A stretch of DNA of 64,000 nt. Origin: Desulfobulbaceae bacterium. GTDB taxonomy: Bacteria > Desulfobacterota > Desulfobulbia > Desulfobulbales > Desulfocapsaceae. A program made the translations under genes and the position numbers. Of this stretch, positions 14,676 through 52,857 are shown in pieces (the first letter of the stretch is position 1; each line of letters begins with the position of its first letter). The notes below the pieces were generated by a model. It was not told the origin of the DNA. It worked only from the letters and a program-made list of their open reading frames with translations, and did not search any database. The stretch is from positions 1 through 64,000 of the forward strand of contig JAABSV010000005.1 of the NCBI GenBank assembly GCA_011390165.1, given 5' to 3'.

Positions 14676-15682
14676 CTCTTCACATCTCGACAGGCCTGGA
14701 CCGGCGTTGTGCATTGGCTGGGGCGGAAGGATTCGAACCTACGAATGCCGGGATCAAAACCCGGTGCCTTACCACTTGGCGACGCCCCAGTGCGCGACCT
14801 CGTTACAAACACCTTTTCGCCGTACCGACGGCGCAAAGGATCAACAATACCCTGCAAATCATGACTGTTGGCCGCTTTTTCATCTGGCCATATACCGAAC
14901 ACGGTCGGGCCACTGCCAGACATCAGGGCCACTAAGGCGCCGGCAGCGAGCAGGGATTCTTTTATCTCTCCTATCTCCGGGTGGACAGCACCGGTCACCG
15001 CCTCAAGATCGTTGTGCAGTAGAGGAAAAGGCCCTCCCGGCAGAAAGGATCGACACAGTTCAGAGCAGGGCACTGTAGAGTTTTTCGCTCTCCTTGTCAA
15101 TGCTAAATTGGCAAAAACCCAGGCCGTGGAAACGAAGAAGCCCGGATTCACCAGGACAAACCAGCACCCGGTCAGGCTTGGCACCGGGCGCATCCTATCC
15201 CCAATCCCTTCAGCATAAACTGCCGGATCAGGGAGAGCAAAAAAAGGCACATCGGCGCCAAGGGGCCTGGCCAGATCAACCAGTTGTTCGCTGGAGAACT
15301 CTTCGGCAAAGATACTGTTCAGCCCACGCAGTACCGCCCCGGCATCACTGCTGCCGCCGCCGAGGCCGGCGGCAACCGGTATTTTCTTAGCCAGCCTTAT
15401 GGTTACCCGCCGACCGGCTGCCCGACGGCTGGCAGCAAGAAAGGCCTCTGCCGCCCGGACGGCAAGATTATCACCGCCAACCGGCAGAGCCGGATCGTCA
15501 CACTGGCAGGAGACTCCCTGGCCTATTTCCACCTGCAGATACAGTTCATCGGCCAGTTCAAGCTTCTGCATCCAGGTGCGCAACTCATGGTAGCCGTCGG
15601 CACGCCTGCCCACCACCTCCAGGGTGAGGTTAACCTTCGCCGGCGCCAGCAGCCACCTCTCCTCTCTGGCCGATGCCTCCAC
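14672..15682 (-). CDS. ispE: 4-diphosphocytidyl-2-C-methyl-D-erythritol kinase, C-terminal read-through into tRNA-Gln
   Basis: GHMP-family kinase of the MEP isoprenoid pathway. The GTG-started frame is 336 aa, about 40 longer than usual. [20 protein letters not shown] is the N-terminal motif; [18 protein letters not shown] is the ATP-binding loop; [13 protein letters not shown] is the third GHMP motif. From about residue 298 the reading frame enters tRNA-Gln ([19 protein letters not shown] is the translation of the tRNA) and stops only at the prs ATG. No stop codon is seen where IspE normally ends. Either the protein has a tRNA-encoded tail, or tRNA processing leaves a stop-less mRNA. It begins 5 nt after the DUF1844 gene. 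Confidence 0.9.
14715..14789 (-). tRNA. tRNA-Gln (TTG anticodon)
   Basis: Reading leftward from 14789, a complete cloverleaf can be drawn. The acceptor stem TGGGGCG pairs with CGCCCCA. The anticodon stem CCGGG/CCCGG encloses the loop TTTTGAT, anticodon TTG. The T arm contains GGTTCGAATCC, followed by discriminator G and an encoded CCA. It lies between ispE and prs, a conserved deltaproteobacterial order, and is fully overlapped by the extended ispE reading frame. Confidence 0.96.
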
Positions 15683-16031: not shown

Positions 16032-17651
16032 TTATGACATTTTTTCCTGCGTAGTCACCGCGGTCAGATCCAATACCCGGGCGCTGGTGACATTATCCAA
16101 CTGTTCAACCCTGGCCAGCAGTTCCCTGGAAACCAGTGCATCGGTGCTGAGCAGGATGATATTCTGGTTGCTCTCCTCCTCTCGCCCCACCGTCATGCGG
16201 GAGATATTCACTCCAGCCTCACCGAGAGTCGTTCCCAGCGCACCGATCACCCCCGGCACATTCCGGTTGCAGACGAGCAGCATCGGCCCCACCGGCAAAG
16301 CCTCGAGGCGGAAGGTGTTGAAGCGAACCAGGCGTGGTTCGCGCCGGCCGAAGACGGTACCAACCAGTATATTCTCGCCGCTGTCTGTTCTGACCCGGAT
16401 CGAAAGTGTGTTGACGAAATCGTCAGACTTCTCACTCTTTGATTCGATTACCCGGATACCCCTCTCCCGGGCAATCAGCGGCGCATTGACATAGTTGACA
16501 GCATCTTTCAGTATCGGCGTAAAGAGCCCCTTCAAGAAGGCAACCGTCACCGGACTGGTGTTCAACTCGGCAAATTCCCCACTGTACTCGATGGAGACCT
16601 CGTCCACCCCGCCACGGGCAAGCTGCATATGGAGGCAGCCAAGCATCTCGCCAAGATGGATATACGGGCCAACCTGGGCCAGCACCTCATCGGTTACCGA
16701 TGGTACATTGACCGCATTGGTTATCGCCCCCTTCAAAAGGTAATCGGCAACCTGCTCGGCTATGATCAGGGCTACACTCTCCTGTGCTTCACTGGTGGAG
16801 GCACCGAGATGCGGGGTACAGATGAAATTATCCAGTCCAAGAAGAGGACAATTGTCCAGACTGGTAGGCTCTATGGCAAAAACGTCAAGGGCGGCGGCGG
16901 CAATTTTCCCCTCCACCAGGGCCCGATAGAGCGCCTCCTCATCGCATATTCCACCTCGAGCGCAGTCAATCAACATCGCATCACTCTTCATCCAGGAAAA
17001 AAACTGGTCGGAGAGCAGGTGCCTCGTTTCCTGAGTGAGGGGGACGTGTACCGAGATACAGTCGGCGTTTTTCGCCAGCTCTTCGAGGCTGACCAGTTCC
17101 ACGCCGATCTTCTCCGCCATCTCCCTGGGCATGTGCGGATCATAGGCGATGGTCTTCATCTTCAGCCCCTGGGCCCGGCTGGCAGCAATTCCGCCGATTC
17201 GCCCGATGCCGATCACCCCGAAAGTCTTGCCGGTCAGTTCCCGGCCGATGAATCTCTTCTTCTCCCATTTCCCCGCCTTCATCGACTGGCAGGCAAGGGG
17301 GATATTGCGGGCCAGGGCCAGCATCATGGCGATGGCATGCTCAGCAGCGGTGGTGGCATTGCCGTCGGGGGCGTTCATTACCACTATCCCCTTCTGGCTG
17401 GCCGCCGTGATGTCGACATTGTCCAGACCGATTCCGGCCCGGCCAACCACCTTCAGGCGGGATGCGGCGGCAATCAGCTCGGCGGTAACCCGTGTGGCGC
17501 TGCGAATGACCAGCCCGTCATACTCACCGATGGTATCTATAAGTTCCGCCGGCGCCAGACCGGTCTGCACCGTTACCTCAAGACCGGCCCGACGGAGAAC
17601 GTCGACCCCGACCTGAGAGAGATTGTCACTGACTAGAACTTTCTTCGCCAT
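16032..17651 (-). CDS. serA: D-3-phosphoglycerate dehydrogenase, long type with ACT domain
   Basis: First enzyme of serine synthesis: oxidises 3-phosphoglycerate with NAD+. 539 aa, the long bacterial form with an intervening (ASB) domain and a C-terminal ACT domain that can bind serine for feedback control. Catalytic features: NAD loop GVIGIGRIGGIAASRA, IRSATRVTAELI near the substrate site, and LGLDNFICTPHLGAST with the catalytic His. The ACT part begins VCNRNVPGVIGALGTTLGEA. AGAGGC precedes the ATG. A near-perfect palindrome lies 23 bp upstream of the start. Confidence 0.96.
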   Translation of the reverse strand: MAKKVLVSDNLSQVGVDVLRRAGLEVTVQTGLAPAELIDTIGEYDGLVIRSATRVTAELIAAASRLKVVGRAGIGLDNVDITAASQKGIVVMNAPDGNATTAAEHAIAMMLALARNIPLACQSMKAGKWEKKRFIGRELTGKTFGVIGIGRIGGIAASRAQGLKMKTIAYDPHMPREMAEKIGVELVSLEELAKNADCISVHVPLTQETRHLLSDQFFSWMKSDAMLIDCARGGICDEEALYRALVEGKIAAAALDVFAIEPTSLDNCPLLGLDNFICTPHLGASTSEAQESVALIIAEQVADYLLKGAITNAVNVPSVTDEVLAQVGPYIHLGEMLGCLHMQLARGGVDEVSIEYSGEFAELNTSPVTVAFLKGLFTPILKDAVNYVNAPLIARERGIRVIESKSEKSDDFVNTLSIRVRTDSGENILVGTVFGRREPRLVRFNTFRLEALPVGPMLLVCNRNVPGVIGALGTTLGEAGVNISRMTVGREEESNQNIILLSTDALVSRELLARVEQLDNVTSARVLDLTAVTTQEKMS

Positions 17652-17673
17652 TCATTTGCCTCTGTTCTGCGGA

Positions 17674-17689
17674 TTGTTTGTGCAAACAA
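17674..17689. promoter_or_regulatory. Palindrome upstream of serA
   Basis: TTGTTTG-TG-CAAACAA, a 7-bp perfect dyad with a two-base centre, 23 bp before the serA start. It could be an operator for a dimeric regulator or a small hairpin in the 5' leader. Confidence 0.4.
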
Positions 17690-18228
17690 CCTCTGCAGGC
17701 TGCTTGTTGGTCTTGCTTCTTACGCAAGGATCGGGTAGACCGGACGCGAGTCAAACTGACCAGCCGGTGCCAGACAGACCCGGCAGCAGAGCAGTAAACA
17801 GAGTGGGCAAAGGGAAGCCACCCGGCCAATCAGCCAGTCGGAAAGCCGCAACTATACTCAGTTCACCAGCCGGCAACAAGAGAAAACAGCTGCCTGACAA
17901 CCGACCAGGGACCACCACCAGCCAGTGGCGGCCGGCAGAGCACCAACCAGTGGCGGCCAGCGGGGCACTGGCAAATGGTTTACCGTTGGTGGCGGACAGA
18001 ATCGGCCAGATGGCATCCGACTCGCCCAGGAGACTGATATCGGCTTGAATAATCCTCCGAAAATAGCTATAAATCTGCCGTACCCCCCGGCCGGCAGCCT
18101 GTGCCCGGACGCTATCCACAGCCACCGGGCAGCCACCGGATAACGGCAGCCAGCAAGAGCGGTCCGGCAGGATTACCGGCAAACACCGCCCTTCCCCGCC
18201 TGCTTAAGTTCGTCGCCTGGGCAGAGAG

Positions 18229-18276
18229 GGTACCGGAAGGTACCAAGTGGTACCGCAGAGGGTACCACTTGGTACC
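18229..18276 (+). repeat. Five GGTACC copies, four forming a 16-bp hairpin ahead of gltX
   Basis: GGTACC occurs at 18229, 18239, 18249, 18261 and 18271. The segment GGTACCAAGTGGTACC (18239-18254) is the exact reverse complement of 18261-18276, separated by the six-base loop GCAGAG. The stem ends 3 nt before the gltX SD (AGGAG at 18280), so it could affect ribosome access or mRNA decay, or serve as a DNA-binding site. Confidence 0.85.
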
Positions 18277-18290
18277 ATAGAGGAGACCAC

Positions 18291-19775
18291 ATGTCAGAGA
18301 CCCGTCTACGCTTCCCCCCCAGCCCCACCGGCTACCTGCATATCGGTGGGGCGAGAACAGCCCTGTACAACTGGCTGTACGCCCGCCAGAACAACGGCAG
18401 GCTGATTCTACGTATAGAAGATACCGACACCGACCGTTCTTCGGCCGGCTCCATTGACGGCATCCTCGAGGGCTTGGCCTGGTTGGGTATCGATTTTGAC
18501 GAGGGGCCCTATTTCCAGACCGATTTCATCTCTTACCACATCCAGGCGGCAGAACGACTGCTGGCCGCCGGCAAGGCATACAAATGCTTCTGCAGCAAAG
18601 AGGAACTTGAGGCAAAACGTGAGGCTGCCCTCGCCGCCAAAGGGCAGCTGGGCTACGACCGCAATTGCCGCAACCTCTCGAGCGACCAGGTTGCCGCCCA
18701 GGAAGCGGCCGGCGCGCCCTGGGTGGTCCGCTTCAAGGTACCCGACCGGAACGGCCAGCTTGCCTACGAAGACCGGATTCTTGGCCGGATCGCCGCCGAC
18801 TACCGGGAAGTGGAGGATTTTGTCATCCTCCGATCCAACGGCACCCCACTCTACCTGCTCTCCAACGTGGTCGATGATATCCGTGACCGGATCAGCCATA
18901 TAATCCGCGGCCAGGACCACATGACCAACACCCTGAAACAGGTGCTGCTCTACGAGGCCCTGGAGGCGCCGCTGCCGGTCTTCGCCCACATGCCGCTCAC
19001 CCTGGACAGCAAAAAGGCCAAGATCTCCAAACGGAGCCACGGCGAGATCGTTGCCGTCCAGTTCTATCGCGACCACGGTTTCATCCCCTGGGCCTTCAAC
19101 AATTTCCTCGCCCTCCTCGGTTGGTCGGCCGGCAACGACCAGGAGATCTTTTCCCGCGAAGAGCTTATCCGGGAGTTCTCCCTGGAACGGATCAACAAGG
19201 CCAATGCCATCTTCAATTACCGCAAGGATGACCCGAAGTTTTTCACCGACCCCAAGGCAATCCACATCAACGCCTACTATCTTCGCCATCTGCCCATCGC
19301 CGAACTGGGCGAGCTGGTGAGAGAGGAGCTGACTCAGGCGGGGCTCTGGCAGGAGGAGTACGCCGGCAGCCAACAGGATTGGTACCACAGCACCCTCGAA
19401 CTGATCCGCGACCGCTTCCATACTCTGAAGGATTTTACCAGCCTGGGACGTGCCTACTTTGCCGATGACTTCGCTGTCGACCCGAAAGCAGAGGCCAAAC
19501 ATCTCGCCAAGAACCCGGAACTGGGAGAATGGCTACCGGCCCTGGCCGATCGCTATCAGGCCCTCGATCGCTTCGATCTGACTACCAGCGAGGCGGCCGC
19601 CCGGGAAATGGCCGAGCAACTGGGCGTCAAGCCGGGTGTGCTGATCAACGCCGTGCGCACCGTGGTAACCGGCCAGCTTGCCGGACCGTCGATGTTCGAG
19701 GCCCTGCTGGCCATCGGCCGGGAACGGGTTATCCAGCGACTGCGAGCCGCCAGCCGCTTTTTCAGCCAAAACTGA
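18291..19775 (+). CDS. gltX: Glutamyl-tRNA synthetase
   Basis: Class I aminoacyl-tRNA synthetase charging tRNA-Glu. 494 aa. It begins LRFPPSPTGYLHIGGARTA with the HIGH-type motif HIGG; the second signature is KAKISKRSHG (KMSKS-type). LRIEDTDTDRSS is the usual GluRS substrate segment. A Cys-containing insert (AYKCFCSKEELE) follows. The C-terminal anticodon-binding helical domain ends at residue ~490. AGGAG lies 6 nt before the ATG. glnS begins 27 nt after the stop on the same strand, so both Glu/Gln synthetases appear to share a transcript. The presence of GlnRS suggests this enzyme need not mischarge tRNA-Gln. Confidence 0.96.
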   Translation: MSETRLRFPPSPTGYLHIGGARTALYNWLYARQNNGRLILRIEDTDTDRSSAGSIDGILEGLAWLGIDFDEGPYFQTDFISYHIQAAERLLAAGKAYKCFCSKEELEAKREAALAAKGQLGYDRNCRNLSSDQVAAQEAAGAPWVVRFKVPDRNGQLAYEDRILGRIAADYREVEDFVILRSNGTPLYLLSNVVDDIRDRISHIIRGQDHMTNTLKQVLLYEALEAPLPVFAHMPLTLDSKKAKISKRSHGEIVAVQFYRDHGFIPWAFNNFLALLGWSAGNDQEIFSREELIREFSLERINKANAIFNYRKDDPKFFTDPKAIHINAYYLRHLPIAELGELVREELTQAGLWQEEYAGSQQDWYHSTLELIRDRFHTLKDFTSLGRAYFADDFAVDPKAEAKHLAKNPELGEWLPALADRYQALDRFDLTTSEAAAREMAEQLGVKPGVLINAVRTVVTGQLAGPSMFEALLAIGRERVIQRLRAASRFFSQN

Positions 19776-19802: not shown

Positions 19803-21485
19803 ATGGACAACAGTAGCGCCGCAAACGGCAAACCCCTCGATTTCATCCGTCAGATCATTGCCGATGATCTGCAAACCGGCAAGCACCAGAAGATCGTCAC
19901 CCGCTTTCCACCGGAACCAAACGGCTACCTGCACATCGGCCATGCCAAGTCGATCTGTCTCAATTTCGGCGTGGCTGAAGAGTTCAACGGCCTTTGCAAC
20001 CTCCGTTTCGACGATACCAACCCCAGCCGGGAGGAGATCACCTACGTCAACTCCATCCAGGAGGATGTCCGTTGGCTGGGCTTTGAATGGACAGAGCAGG
20101 TCCGCTTCGCCTCCGACTATTTTCCCCAGCTGTACGATTTTGCCGTACGGCTGATCGAATTGGGCAAAGCCTATGTCTGCCAGCTTTCCCCGGAGGAGAT
20201 CCGTCAATACCGCGGCACCCTCACCGAACCAGGCCAGAACAGCCCCTACCGGGAGCGCGGCATTGCCGAAAACCTCGCCCTTTTTGAACAGATGCGACAG
20301 GGTGAACTGGCAGAGGGTTCGCACGTCCTGCGGGCAAAGATCGATATGGCCTCGGCCAATCTCAATCTACGCGACCCGGTGCTCTACCGGATTCTCAAGG
20401 TTGCACACCATCGTACCGGTCAAAGCTGGCAGATCTACCCGATGTACGACTACACCCACTGCCTCTCGGACATGCTGGAAGGGATCACCCACTCCCTCTG
20501 CACTCTTGAGTTTGAAGACCACCGGCCACTCTACGACTGGGTTCTGGCCACCCTGCAGACCCCTTGCCACCCCCGGCAAATTGAATTTGCCCGTCTCAAC
20601 CTGAGTTATACGGTAATGAGCAAGCGTAAACTGCTGAAGATGGTGACCGGCAGCCACGTCGATGGTTGGGACGACCCGAGGATGCTCACCATCTCCGGCC
20701 TGCGCCGGCGTGGCTACACCCCTGCCGCCATCCGCTCTTTCTGCCGCAATATTGGGATCGGCAAAAGTGACAGCCGGATCGACATGGCTGTTCTGGAAAA
20801 CGAAGTACGCGCCGACCTCAACCTCAAGGCCGAACGGCGCATGTGCGTACTCGAGCCACTGAAGCTGGTTATCGACAACTATCCGGAAGGCCGGCAAGAG
20901 CAGGTGATGGCTAAAAATCACCCGCAAAACGAAGAAATGGGGGAGAGGCCAATCACCTTCAGCAAAGAACTGTACATCGAACGCGACGACTTCATGGAAC
21001 TGCCCGGCAAACGATACCACCGTCTCGCCCCCGGCCGCGAGGTCCGTCTGCGCTACGGCTATCTGGTGCGTTGTGTCTCGGTGGACAAGGATCCGGCAAG
21101 CGGCGTCGTCAACACCGTCCATTGCACCTATGACCCTGACACCAGGGGTGGTTCGGCACCGGACGGGAGAAAGGTGAAAGGGACCATCCACTGGGTTTCC
21201 GCCACCGATGCCGTGCCGGTGACCATTCGCCTCTTTGATCGTCTGTTCTCGGTCGCCGACCCGGAGGAAGACAAGAGTCTCGACTTCCTTGACCACCTCA
21301 ATCCCGCCTCCAAGGTCGTCCTGACTGGCGCCCTGGCCGAACCTTCCCTGCTTGAGCCACCGGACTTCCCACTCCAGTTTGAACGGCAGGGCTATTTCTT
21401 TGCCGACCCTGAAGAGTCCAGACCGGGCCAGCCGGTATTCAACCGAACCGTCACCCTGAAAGACTCCTGGGAAGGAAAACAGTGA
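19803..21485 (+). CDS. glnS: Glutaminyl-tRNA synthetase
   Basis: Charges tRNA-Gln directly. 560 aa, similar to the E. coli enzyme. [20 protein letters not shown] holds the HIGH motif; [11 protein letters not shown] is the KMSKS-type loop; [20 protein letters not shown] and the [20 protein letters not shown] region are characteristic of GlnRS rather than GluRS. The C-terminal beta-barrel anticodon domain runs from about residue 340 onward ([16 protein letters not shown]). Bacterial GlnRS is thought to have come from eukaryotes by horizontal transfer and is patchily distributed. It lies between gltX and feoA. Confidence 0.96.
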
Positions 21486-27719: not shown

Positions 27720-28679
27720 TTACCTGCCTCGCCGACGAACGGCATGGTAGCGAAGCAACCGCACCAGCAGGTAGGTGACCAGCAGCGAGAAGAGAATGCG
27801 CCCCCAGAGAATTCCAGCGAACCTGCCGCCAATAGCCGCCATGACCAGGGTGTCCTCCACCAGACCATGGCAGAGACCCATCAAGACCATGGAGTTGAAC
27901 ACCTCCTCCTTTTCCAGCTTGCCGGTAGTTGTTTCCCGAATGATCAGGGCCCCGCCGTAGCCGATGCCCATGATCATCCCGACCACCGTGATCGGCGCCG
28001 CCTGCCGGCCCATGCCGAACCAGGGCAGAACCGGGGCCAGCACCCGTTCCAGCAGATCAAGCAGCCCAATAACTCGAAACAAGCGCATGCCGAGGACGAC
28101 GGCAAAGATAATGACGACGATCATCGCCAGATTCTGCACCTGGTTCTGGGCCCACTGATCCAGGCCGGCCGAGGGGGCCGAGCCCTTGAAAAACATGCTG
28201 GCCGGCTCCTGCCAGAGGGAAAAGATCCGGCAGAGCTGGTTCAACAACCAGCCATACAACAGTGCCCCAAGGAGTCGTACCAGGGCGATGGGGAGCAGCC
28301 GGGCCCCGGCCCGGCTGCTGACACTCAGTTCTATGGGCAGGGCATGGGCGATAAGTATCACCGAACAGAGGACGGTGACCTGCGCCGAGGTCAGTTCCAG
28401 CCCCGGGGCGAGGGCGGCGAAGACCGCTATGCCGGCATAGAGGGTGGTAAACATGGCCGTCGCCCAAACCAGCCCGAGCGAGCCGGGCAGACCGAGCAGG
28501 GCCATCACCGGCTCAAGCAGAGTACTGAGAGAGTTGATCAGACCCAGCTCTGTGAGGATTTTCGTACCGATCACCACCGGAATGGTGATTTTGATCAGCT
28601 CCCAGCTGGTCAGCCAGGTCTCCCGCACTAGCGACAGGCAGGCACCCGCCAGCCGGCTACCCTTGCCAGTCTGCGCCAT
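27720..28679 (-). CDS. Nucleoside-recognition (Gate) domain membrane protein
   Basis: 319-aa integral membrane protein with about eight hydrophobic segments in two related halves, as in Gate/nucleoside-recognition proteins (also found in FeoB and spore maturation proteins). Conserved segments: KITIPVVIGTKILTELGL, LCSVILIAHALPIELSVSSR, and GMIMGIGYGGALIIRETTTG with the following MGLCHGLVEDTLVMAAIGG. The substrate is unknown. The ATG at 28679 has GGAAGAGTGG; 29 additional in-frame codons upstream are polar and unlike the family. It starts 27 nt after the small Cys protein gene. Confidence 0.85.
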   Translation of the reverse strand: MAQTGKGSRLAGACLSLVRETWLTSWELIKITIPVVIGTKILTELGLINSLSTLLEPVMALLGLPGSLGLVWATAMFTTLYAGIAVFAALAPGLELTSAQVTVLCSVILIAHALPIELSVSSRAGARLLPIALVRLLGALLYGWLLNQLCRIFSLWQEPASMFFKGSAPSAGLDQWAQNQVQNLAMIVVIIFAVVLGMRLFRVIGLLDLLERVLAPVLPWFGMGRQAAPITVVGMIMGIGYGGALIIRETTTGKLEKEEVFNSMVLMGLCHGLVEDTLVMAAIGGRFAGILWGRILFSLLVTYLLVRLLRYHAVRRRGR

Positions 28680-52830: not shown

Positions 52831-52857
52831 GGGCGGTGGAGAGGACCTCCACCGCCC
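52831..52857 (+). other. Strong hairpin between hcp and its Fe-S partner
   Basis: GGGCGGTGGAG and CTCCACCGCCC form a perfect 11-bp GC-rich stem around a five-base loop, 38 nt past hcp and 19 nt before the next ATG. It lacks a T tract, so it more likely stabilises the hcp mRNA or limits downstream expression than terminates fully. Confidence 0.75.

Follow-up and report, generated by a model that had tools for sequence, protein, structure and literature searches.

The closest described counterparts of the element reported here are structured standby-site hairpins and template-switch (quasipalindrome) mutations. Espah Borujeni et al. (PMC3936740) found in Escherichia coli reporters that translation changed strongly when a single hairpin of 9-18 bp was placed 1-24 nt from the Shine-Dalgarno sequence. 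Taller stems and shorter proximal gaps lowered translation in those reporters, in which 4 bp less height gave 3.1-fold more translation and 4 nt more proximal gap gave 4.0-fold more (PMC3936740). Template switching is described as able to create perfect hairpins in one event (PMC8794818) and to invert the spacers of inverted repeats (PMC8604942). We analyzed a 64,000-nt stretch of a Desulfobulbaceae bacterium (contig JAABSV010000005.1, positions 1 to 64,000, forward strand; hereafter the window), in which an array of GGTACC palindromes forms a perfect hairpin directly before the ribosome-binding site of gltX, the gene of glutamyl-tRNA synthetase. We give a probability of about 0.55 to the reading that this is a lineage-specific hairpin of the 5' leader of gltX, or of gltX-glnS, that was born of a local copying accident and, judged by analogy with the systems above, is most likely passive in its effect. 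The features that make up the element are the following:

18229 to 18276, forward strand: array of five GGTACC palindromes, starting at 18229, 18239, 18249, 18261 and 18271 (start-to-start spacing 10, 10, 12 and 10)
18239 to 18254, forward strand: 5' arm of the perfect 16-bp stem, GGTACCAAGTGGTACC
18255 to 18260, forward strand: hairpin loop of 6 nt, GCAGAG
18261 to 18276, forward strand: 3' arm of the perfect 16-bp stem, GGTACCACTTGGTACC
18280 to 18285, forward strand: gltX Shine-Dalgarno sequence GAGGAG, assigned from the sequence

GGTACC words two to five and their 4-base spacers make up two 16-nt arms that are 100% complementary and lie 6 nt apart. The stem ends at 18276, and after 3 nt GAGGAG begins at 18280; the gltX ATG is at 18291, which puts the foot of the stem at -15 relative to the start codon. 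The array and the perfect hairpin are thus real and regular. An earlier note on this DNA had described five GGTACC words in 48 bp, four of them building a perfect 16-bp stem that stops 3 nt before the Shine-Dalgarno sequence, with no T tract behind it, and these descriptions proved accurate (array 18229-18276, hairpin 18239-18276). The predicted RNA energy of the stem is -31.0 kcal/mol, and in its 131-nt context the hairpin folds better than 200 of 200 shuffled sequences (z -3.03). No T run follows the hairpin on either strand, and a terminator scan of 17600-18400 called three sites, all within 17805-17909, and not the hairpin itself. An intrinsic terminator or attenuator, in which a GC-rich stem is followed by a T run, was therefore rejected.

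The same note had judged the array too regular for chance, and simulation bore this out. Sixty order-3 Markov simulations, each of 64 kb, had longest perfect stems of 9 to 13 bp, and in a separate set of 60 such simulations the maximum was three GGTACC words per 48 bp; none of 60 simulated windows came near the observed arrangement. Within the window itself, the second-longest perfect stem with a loop of 3-12 nt is 11 bp; perfect 11-bp hairpins are found at 28294-28319 and 52831-52857. The window has 27 GGTACC words, where dinucleotide shuffles have 8.5 and the window's own 5-mers predict 33. As a word GGTACC is not clearly special there; the clustering is the unusual part.

The arrangement of the array suggests how it may have arisen. 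It can be divided into two tandem units:

18239 to 18260, forward strand: first 22-bp tandem unit, with spacer AAGT
18261 to 18282, forward strand: second 22-bp tandem unit, with spacer ACTT

At 18239-18283 Tandem Repeats Finder reports a 22-bp unit in 2.0 copies, and the two units are identical at 18 of 22 positions. Because GGTACC is self-complementary, a tandem duplicate is automatically a near-perfect inverted repeat: by inspection, direct duplication of GGTACC-N4-GGTACC alone gives at least 12 of the 16 stem pairs, and 14 when the spacer is AAGT. The spacers AAGT and ACTT are exact reverse complements of each other, which would happen by chance in about 1 in 256 cases if they were independent. 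An exact reverse-complement copy that replaces a near-repeat is the mark of a template switch, and this is the relation found between AAGT and ACTT. Two GGTACC palindromes set 10 bp apart would have been duplicated in tandem as part of a 22-bp unit, and one template switch would then have inverted the 4-base spacer, from AAGT to ACTT or the reverse, so that all 16 pairs match. We infer this order of events, duplication and then template switch, from the repeat structure. A small duplication and a single switch would suffice, so a perfect stem could have come about without selection. The locus resembles the template-switch mutations described in PMC8794818 and PMC8604942 in having a perfect inverted repeat, here with a 4-base spacer exactly inverted, and differs in that the arms available for spacer inversion are only 6 bp long, shorter than in the yeast cases (PMC8604942).

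Copies of the array elsewhere in the genome, which the earlier note had proposed to look for, were not found. GGTACC-N4-GGTACC has no occurrence in the window's own genome outside 18229-18276; GGTACC pairs at spacers of 0-30 otherwise occur scattered, and the array pattern with two mismatches allowed gave 198 forward matches versus 277 for a reversed control. When the leader DNA was searched against 15 genomes of the genus, including its own, the best match off the locus had an E value of 0.0097 over 26 bases. A phage search with the hairpin gave no match, and a plasmid match in Candidatus Bandiella numerosa (75% at E 0.1) was weak and judged to be chance. The note's suggestion of a small mobile or recombination-derived repeat thus survives in its second half: the 22-bp tandem duplication with its reverse-complemented spacer speaks for an origin in recombination or replication, whereas a mobile repeat is not borne out, no second genomic copy having been found.

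The relatives gave a similar picture. We compared 97 distinct gltX leaders, the window's own included, that remained after repeats were removed; they came from 70 of 89 gltX match places (30 loci and 40 fetched, with 19 left out) and from 80 further loci. The assumed start codon was not ATG in two of the 97 rows (CAC and GTC), so leader positions in these two are off by some bases. The nearest relatives examined are about 75% identical in GltX. Within 300 nt, the window's leader has five GGTACC words, four leaders have one each and the other 92 have none. In the last 100 nt, perfect stems reach 16 bp in the window's leader versus 3-11 bp in the other 96 (11 bp in L046), and in 12 aligned leaders the array stretch has no clear counterpart. 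On a wider scale, the four-unit GGTACC pattern was present in one of 257 genomes of the order, which is the window's own, and the three-unit pattern in two of 395 genomes of a phylum sample, again including its own; the other was a single match read on one strand. The two-unit pair occurs in 12 of 93 family genomes, own included. The 11 others have it at 14 places, none of them beside gltX: they are on contigs other than that of gltX or, in G037, some 125 kb from it. Of the 13 that were read, 12 fall inside open frames at least 187 codons long. A single copy that was not found in relatives' leaders looks like a novelty of the window's lineage, the nearest relative being at about 75% GltX identity.

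The earlier note had suggested that the hairpin may control translation or mRNA stability of the gltX-glnS unit, and had named lack of conservation among what would count against it. None of the 96 other leaders read, the nearest at about 75% GltX identity, carries the hairpin, so the idea of a conserved control element found no support, while that of a non-terminator hairpin in the gltX leader by the ribosome-binding site stood. A recurring hairpin abutting the Shine-Dalgarno sequence was likewise rejected: by position, hairpin ends in the 97 leaders show no excess next to the Shine-Dalgarno sequence over other positions. Some leaders carry hairpins near this site, but there is no family-wide element. 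Two such cases were seen in passing. In one leader from the same genus (L043, genome G060), a strong but unrelated hairpin (loop AAAAA, stem around CCGGTCGC/GCGGCCGG) runs into the gltX Shine-Dalgarno sequence. Leaders of genus g16 (L057, L081 and others) have a short TGATCA...TGATCA inverted repeat a few bases before it; the repeat forms 7 perfect pairs in L057 and L081, and the pairing varies between g16 genomes. Our literature search, which was not exhaustive, found no published account of the gltX hairpin, nor any of GGTACC as an operator.

What the hairpin might do depends on whether it hides the ribosome-binding site. The predicted unpaired probability of GAGGAG is 0.26-0.68 when 18080-18350 is folded and 0.17-0.50 when folding starts at 18277. 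The site is thus predicted to be at least as accessible with the stem as without it, and the stem not to sequester it; by folding prediction the leader has what a standby site has, namely a stem upstream of an unsequestered Shine-Dalgarno sequence. If the hairpin is active, it probably serves gltX-glnS as a constitutive standby-site structure: in the mRNA, the stem would occupy the room ahead of the Shine-Dalgarno sequence that serves as platform, or standby site, and lower initiation somewhat, and it may also alter the lifetime of the mRNA. By analogy with the E. coli reporters, initiation should be reduced by a stem of 16 pairs that ends 3 nt from the Shine-Dalgarno sequence. The likeness to the standby-site hairpins of PMC3936740 lies in the single stem, whose 16 pairs and 3-nt gap are within the ranges tested there, and in the predicted free Shine-Dalgarno sequence; the difference is that the stem here is natural, fully perfect and known from sequence, in an organism other than E. 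coli.

Several points weigh against the reading as a passive product of local copying. The yeast study, in the cases it describes, saw spacer inversion only with arms above 9 bp (PMC8604942), and the arms here are 6 bp. The ancestral state is not seen in any close relative, the nearest being at about 75% GltX identity. The perfect pairing could instead have been kept by selection. Moreover, 16 of the 97 leaders folded significantly in the segment from -60 to -13 when the limit was p 0.05, and 7 when it was p 0.01, as compared with 9 and 5 for the control segment from -120 to -73 and 8 and 1 for that from -180 to -133; these counts leave room for a weak general tendency of gltX leaders to fold near the Shine-Dalgarno sequence.

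The hairpin lies in the intergenic region of 639 bp between gltX and a divergent serA-like gene, and the wider locus contains the following features:

16032 to 17651, reverse strand: serA-like phosphoglycerate dehydrogenase gene, divergent from and upstream of gltX
18045 to 18073, forward strand: putative gltX promoter, TTGAAT (18045-18050), N17, TATAAA (18068-18073), with a likely transcription start near 18080
18291 to 19775, forward strand: gltX, glutamyl-tRNA synthetase (GluRS), 494 aa (PF00749, PF19269)
19803 to 21485, forward strand: glnS, glutaminyl-tRNA synthetase (GlnRS), 27 nt past the gltX stop (PF00749, PF03950, PF20974)

gltX has one match in its own genome at an E value of 1e-100 or better. 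A serA-like tblastn match is present at 51 of the 80 gltX loci, and in the six where positions were checked the gene is upstream and divergent. The intergenic region also holds a 25-bp tandem repeat of 2.1 copies (17916-17968). TTGAAT-N17-TATAAA was missed by a simple promoter scan because the scan requires a final T. TTGANN-N17-TATANN is present in 71 of the 97 distinct leaders, against a mean of 0.75 and a largest value of 3 in 200 mononucleotide shuffles; since the leaders are related to one another, this count shows conservation and is not independent evidence. In relatives the motif reads roughly TTGAAC-N9-GAA-N5-TATAWA (12 leaders aligned), its distance to the start codon is very variable, and the leader lengths derived from it among the 71 leaders run from 30 to 234 nt. 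Given the motif at 18045-18073, the array falls within the 5' untranslated region of gltX, and with a start near 18080 it would form the last part of a leader some 210 nt long. Both the use of this promoter and the effect on translation are conclusions that we infer.

The alternative closest to our reading shares its duplication origin and holds that the stem has no measurable effect on gltX, because ribosomes push it aside or bind elsewhere. We regard this as a real but clearly lesser possibility. The stem is not conserved in the relatives examined, the Shine-Dalgarno sequence is predicted to be at least as open as without it, and E. coli ribosomes are reported to be able to slide past a structure upstream, paying about 0.2 kcal/mol for each unit of hairpin height (PMC3936740). 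Against it, a stem of -31 kcal/mol at 3 nt from the Shine-Dalgarno sequence is within the geometries that altered translation in that study (PMC3936740). A leader RNA that responds to a ligand, be it charged tRNA, GluRS itself or some other, with the stem as one of two alternative folds, is improbable. Aminoacyl-tRNA synthetase genes are often controlled by leaders, and the self-complementary GGTACC words can pair in several registers, which gives alternative 6-bp hairpins; at -8.2 to -9.3 kcal/mol, however, the alternatives tried are far less stable than the 16-bp fold (-31.0). The relatives' leaders that were read have no such structure before gltX, and the only Rfam match in the window at gathering score is a tRNA gene (14718-14789). 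A T-box or other catalogued leader RNA was rejected at the hairpin on the same grounds: the locus shares with T-box and other synthetase leaders a structured leader before an aminoacyl-tRNA synthetase gene, but has neither an Rfam covariance-model match nor a terminator. We think it very unlikely that the main role of the stem is to set mRNA lifetime, as an RNase III processing site or a protective 5' stem; its 16 pairs are uninterrupted, and long hairpins in the standby-site study were given internal loops to avoid possible RNase activity (PMC3936740), yet the stem is not conserved in the relatives' leaders examined. Least probable of all is a small mobile palindrome of the REP/REPIN or MITE (miniature inverted-repeat transposable element) type. 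The hairpin is short, palindromic and extragenic, as REP/REPIN elements are; unlike them it is single copy, dispersed copies being absent from its own genome, and it was not found in relatives.

The array might also act as DNA, as an operator: spaced by a helical turn, the GGTACC palindromes would all face the same side of the double helix and be bound there by a dimeric protein that acts cooperatively. Ribbon-helix-helix proteins are an example of such binders. The spacing of 10, 10, 12 and 10 is near one helical turn, and GGTACC arrays recur in viral contigs, four with the four-unit and 18 with the three-unit form (one contig in both), counts in which related contigs were not collapsed, several of the 18 sharing flanks and being related. 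Dense, helically phased arrays are seen in L176 (1530-1644), L177, L178, L179, L182, L183, L185, L192 and others. Among 11 viral contigs whose open frames were looked at (with Pfam run on the neighbours in five), there are three in which the array coincides with the end of a replication-type gene or follows it closely, the gene being Toprim/AAA or Prim-Pol by Pfam (L176, L183 and L185); the neighbours in L186 and L197 have no Pfam family. Beside such genes the arrays might mark a replication origin. However, three control palindromes in the three-unit form gave 9, 5 and 3 viral contigs against 18, so the viral excess is modest. Before gltX the array occupies the stretch some 156-203 bp downstream from the -10 box of the putative promoter, and its spacers match perfectly for pairing as RNA, a property for which an operator has no use. 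No second array was found in the genome, which argues against a regulon or an autoregulated regulator; no search for regulators was made. We therefore consider an operator doubtful, if slightly less so than a sensing leader, and all three of sensing element, operator array and mobile palindrome are poorly supported. It is conceivable, at very long odds, that helically phased GGTACC arrays are a recurring binding-site module, present beside replication-type genes in some phage-like contigs, and that one was acquired in front of gltX, where either its RNA form or a protein bound to it would control GluRS and GlnRS synthesis.

As a lineage-specific leader hairpin that was probably made by local copying, the element would be a tidy example of a known process, ordinary in kind, and not a new system. 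It illustrates how a self-complementary word and a small tandem duplication may give rise almost at once to a perfect leader hairpin, at a place where the translation of an essential gene can change.
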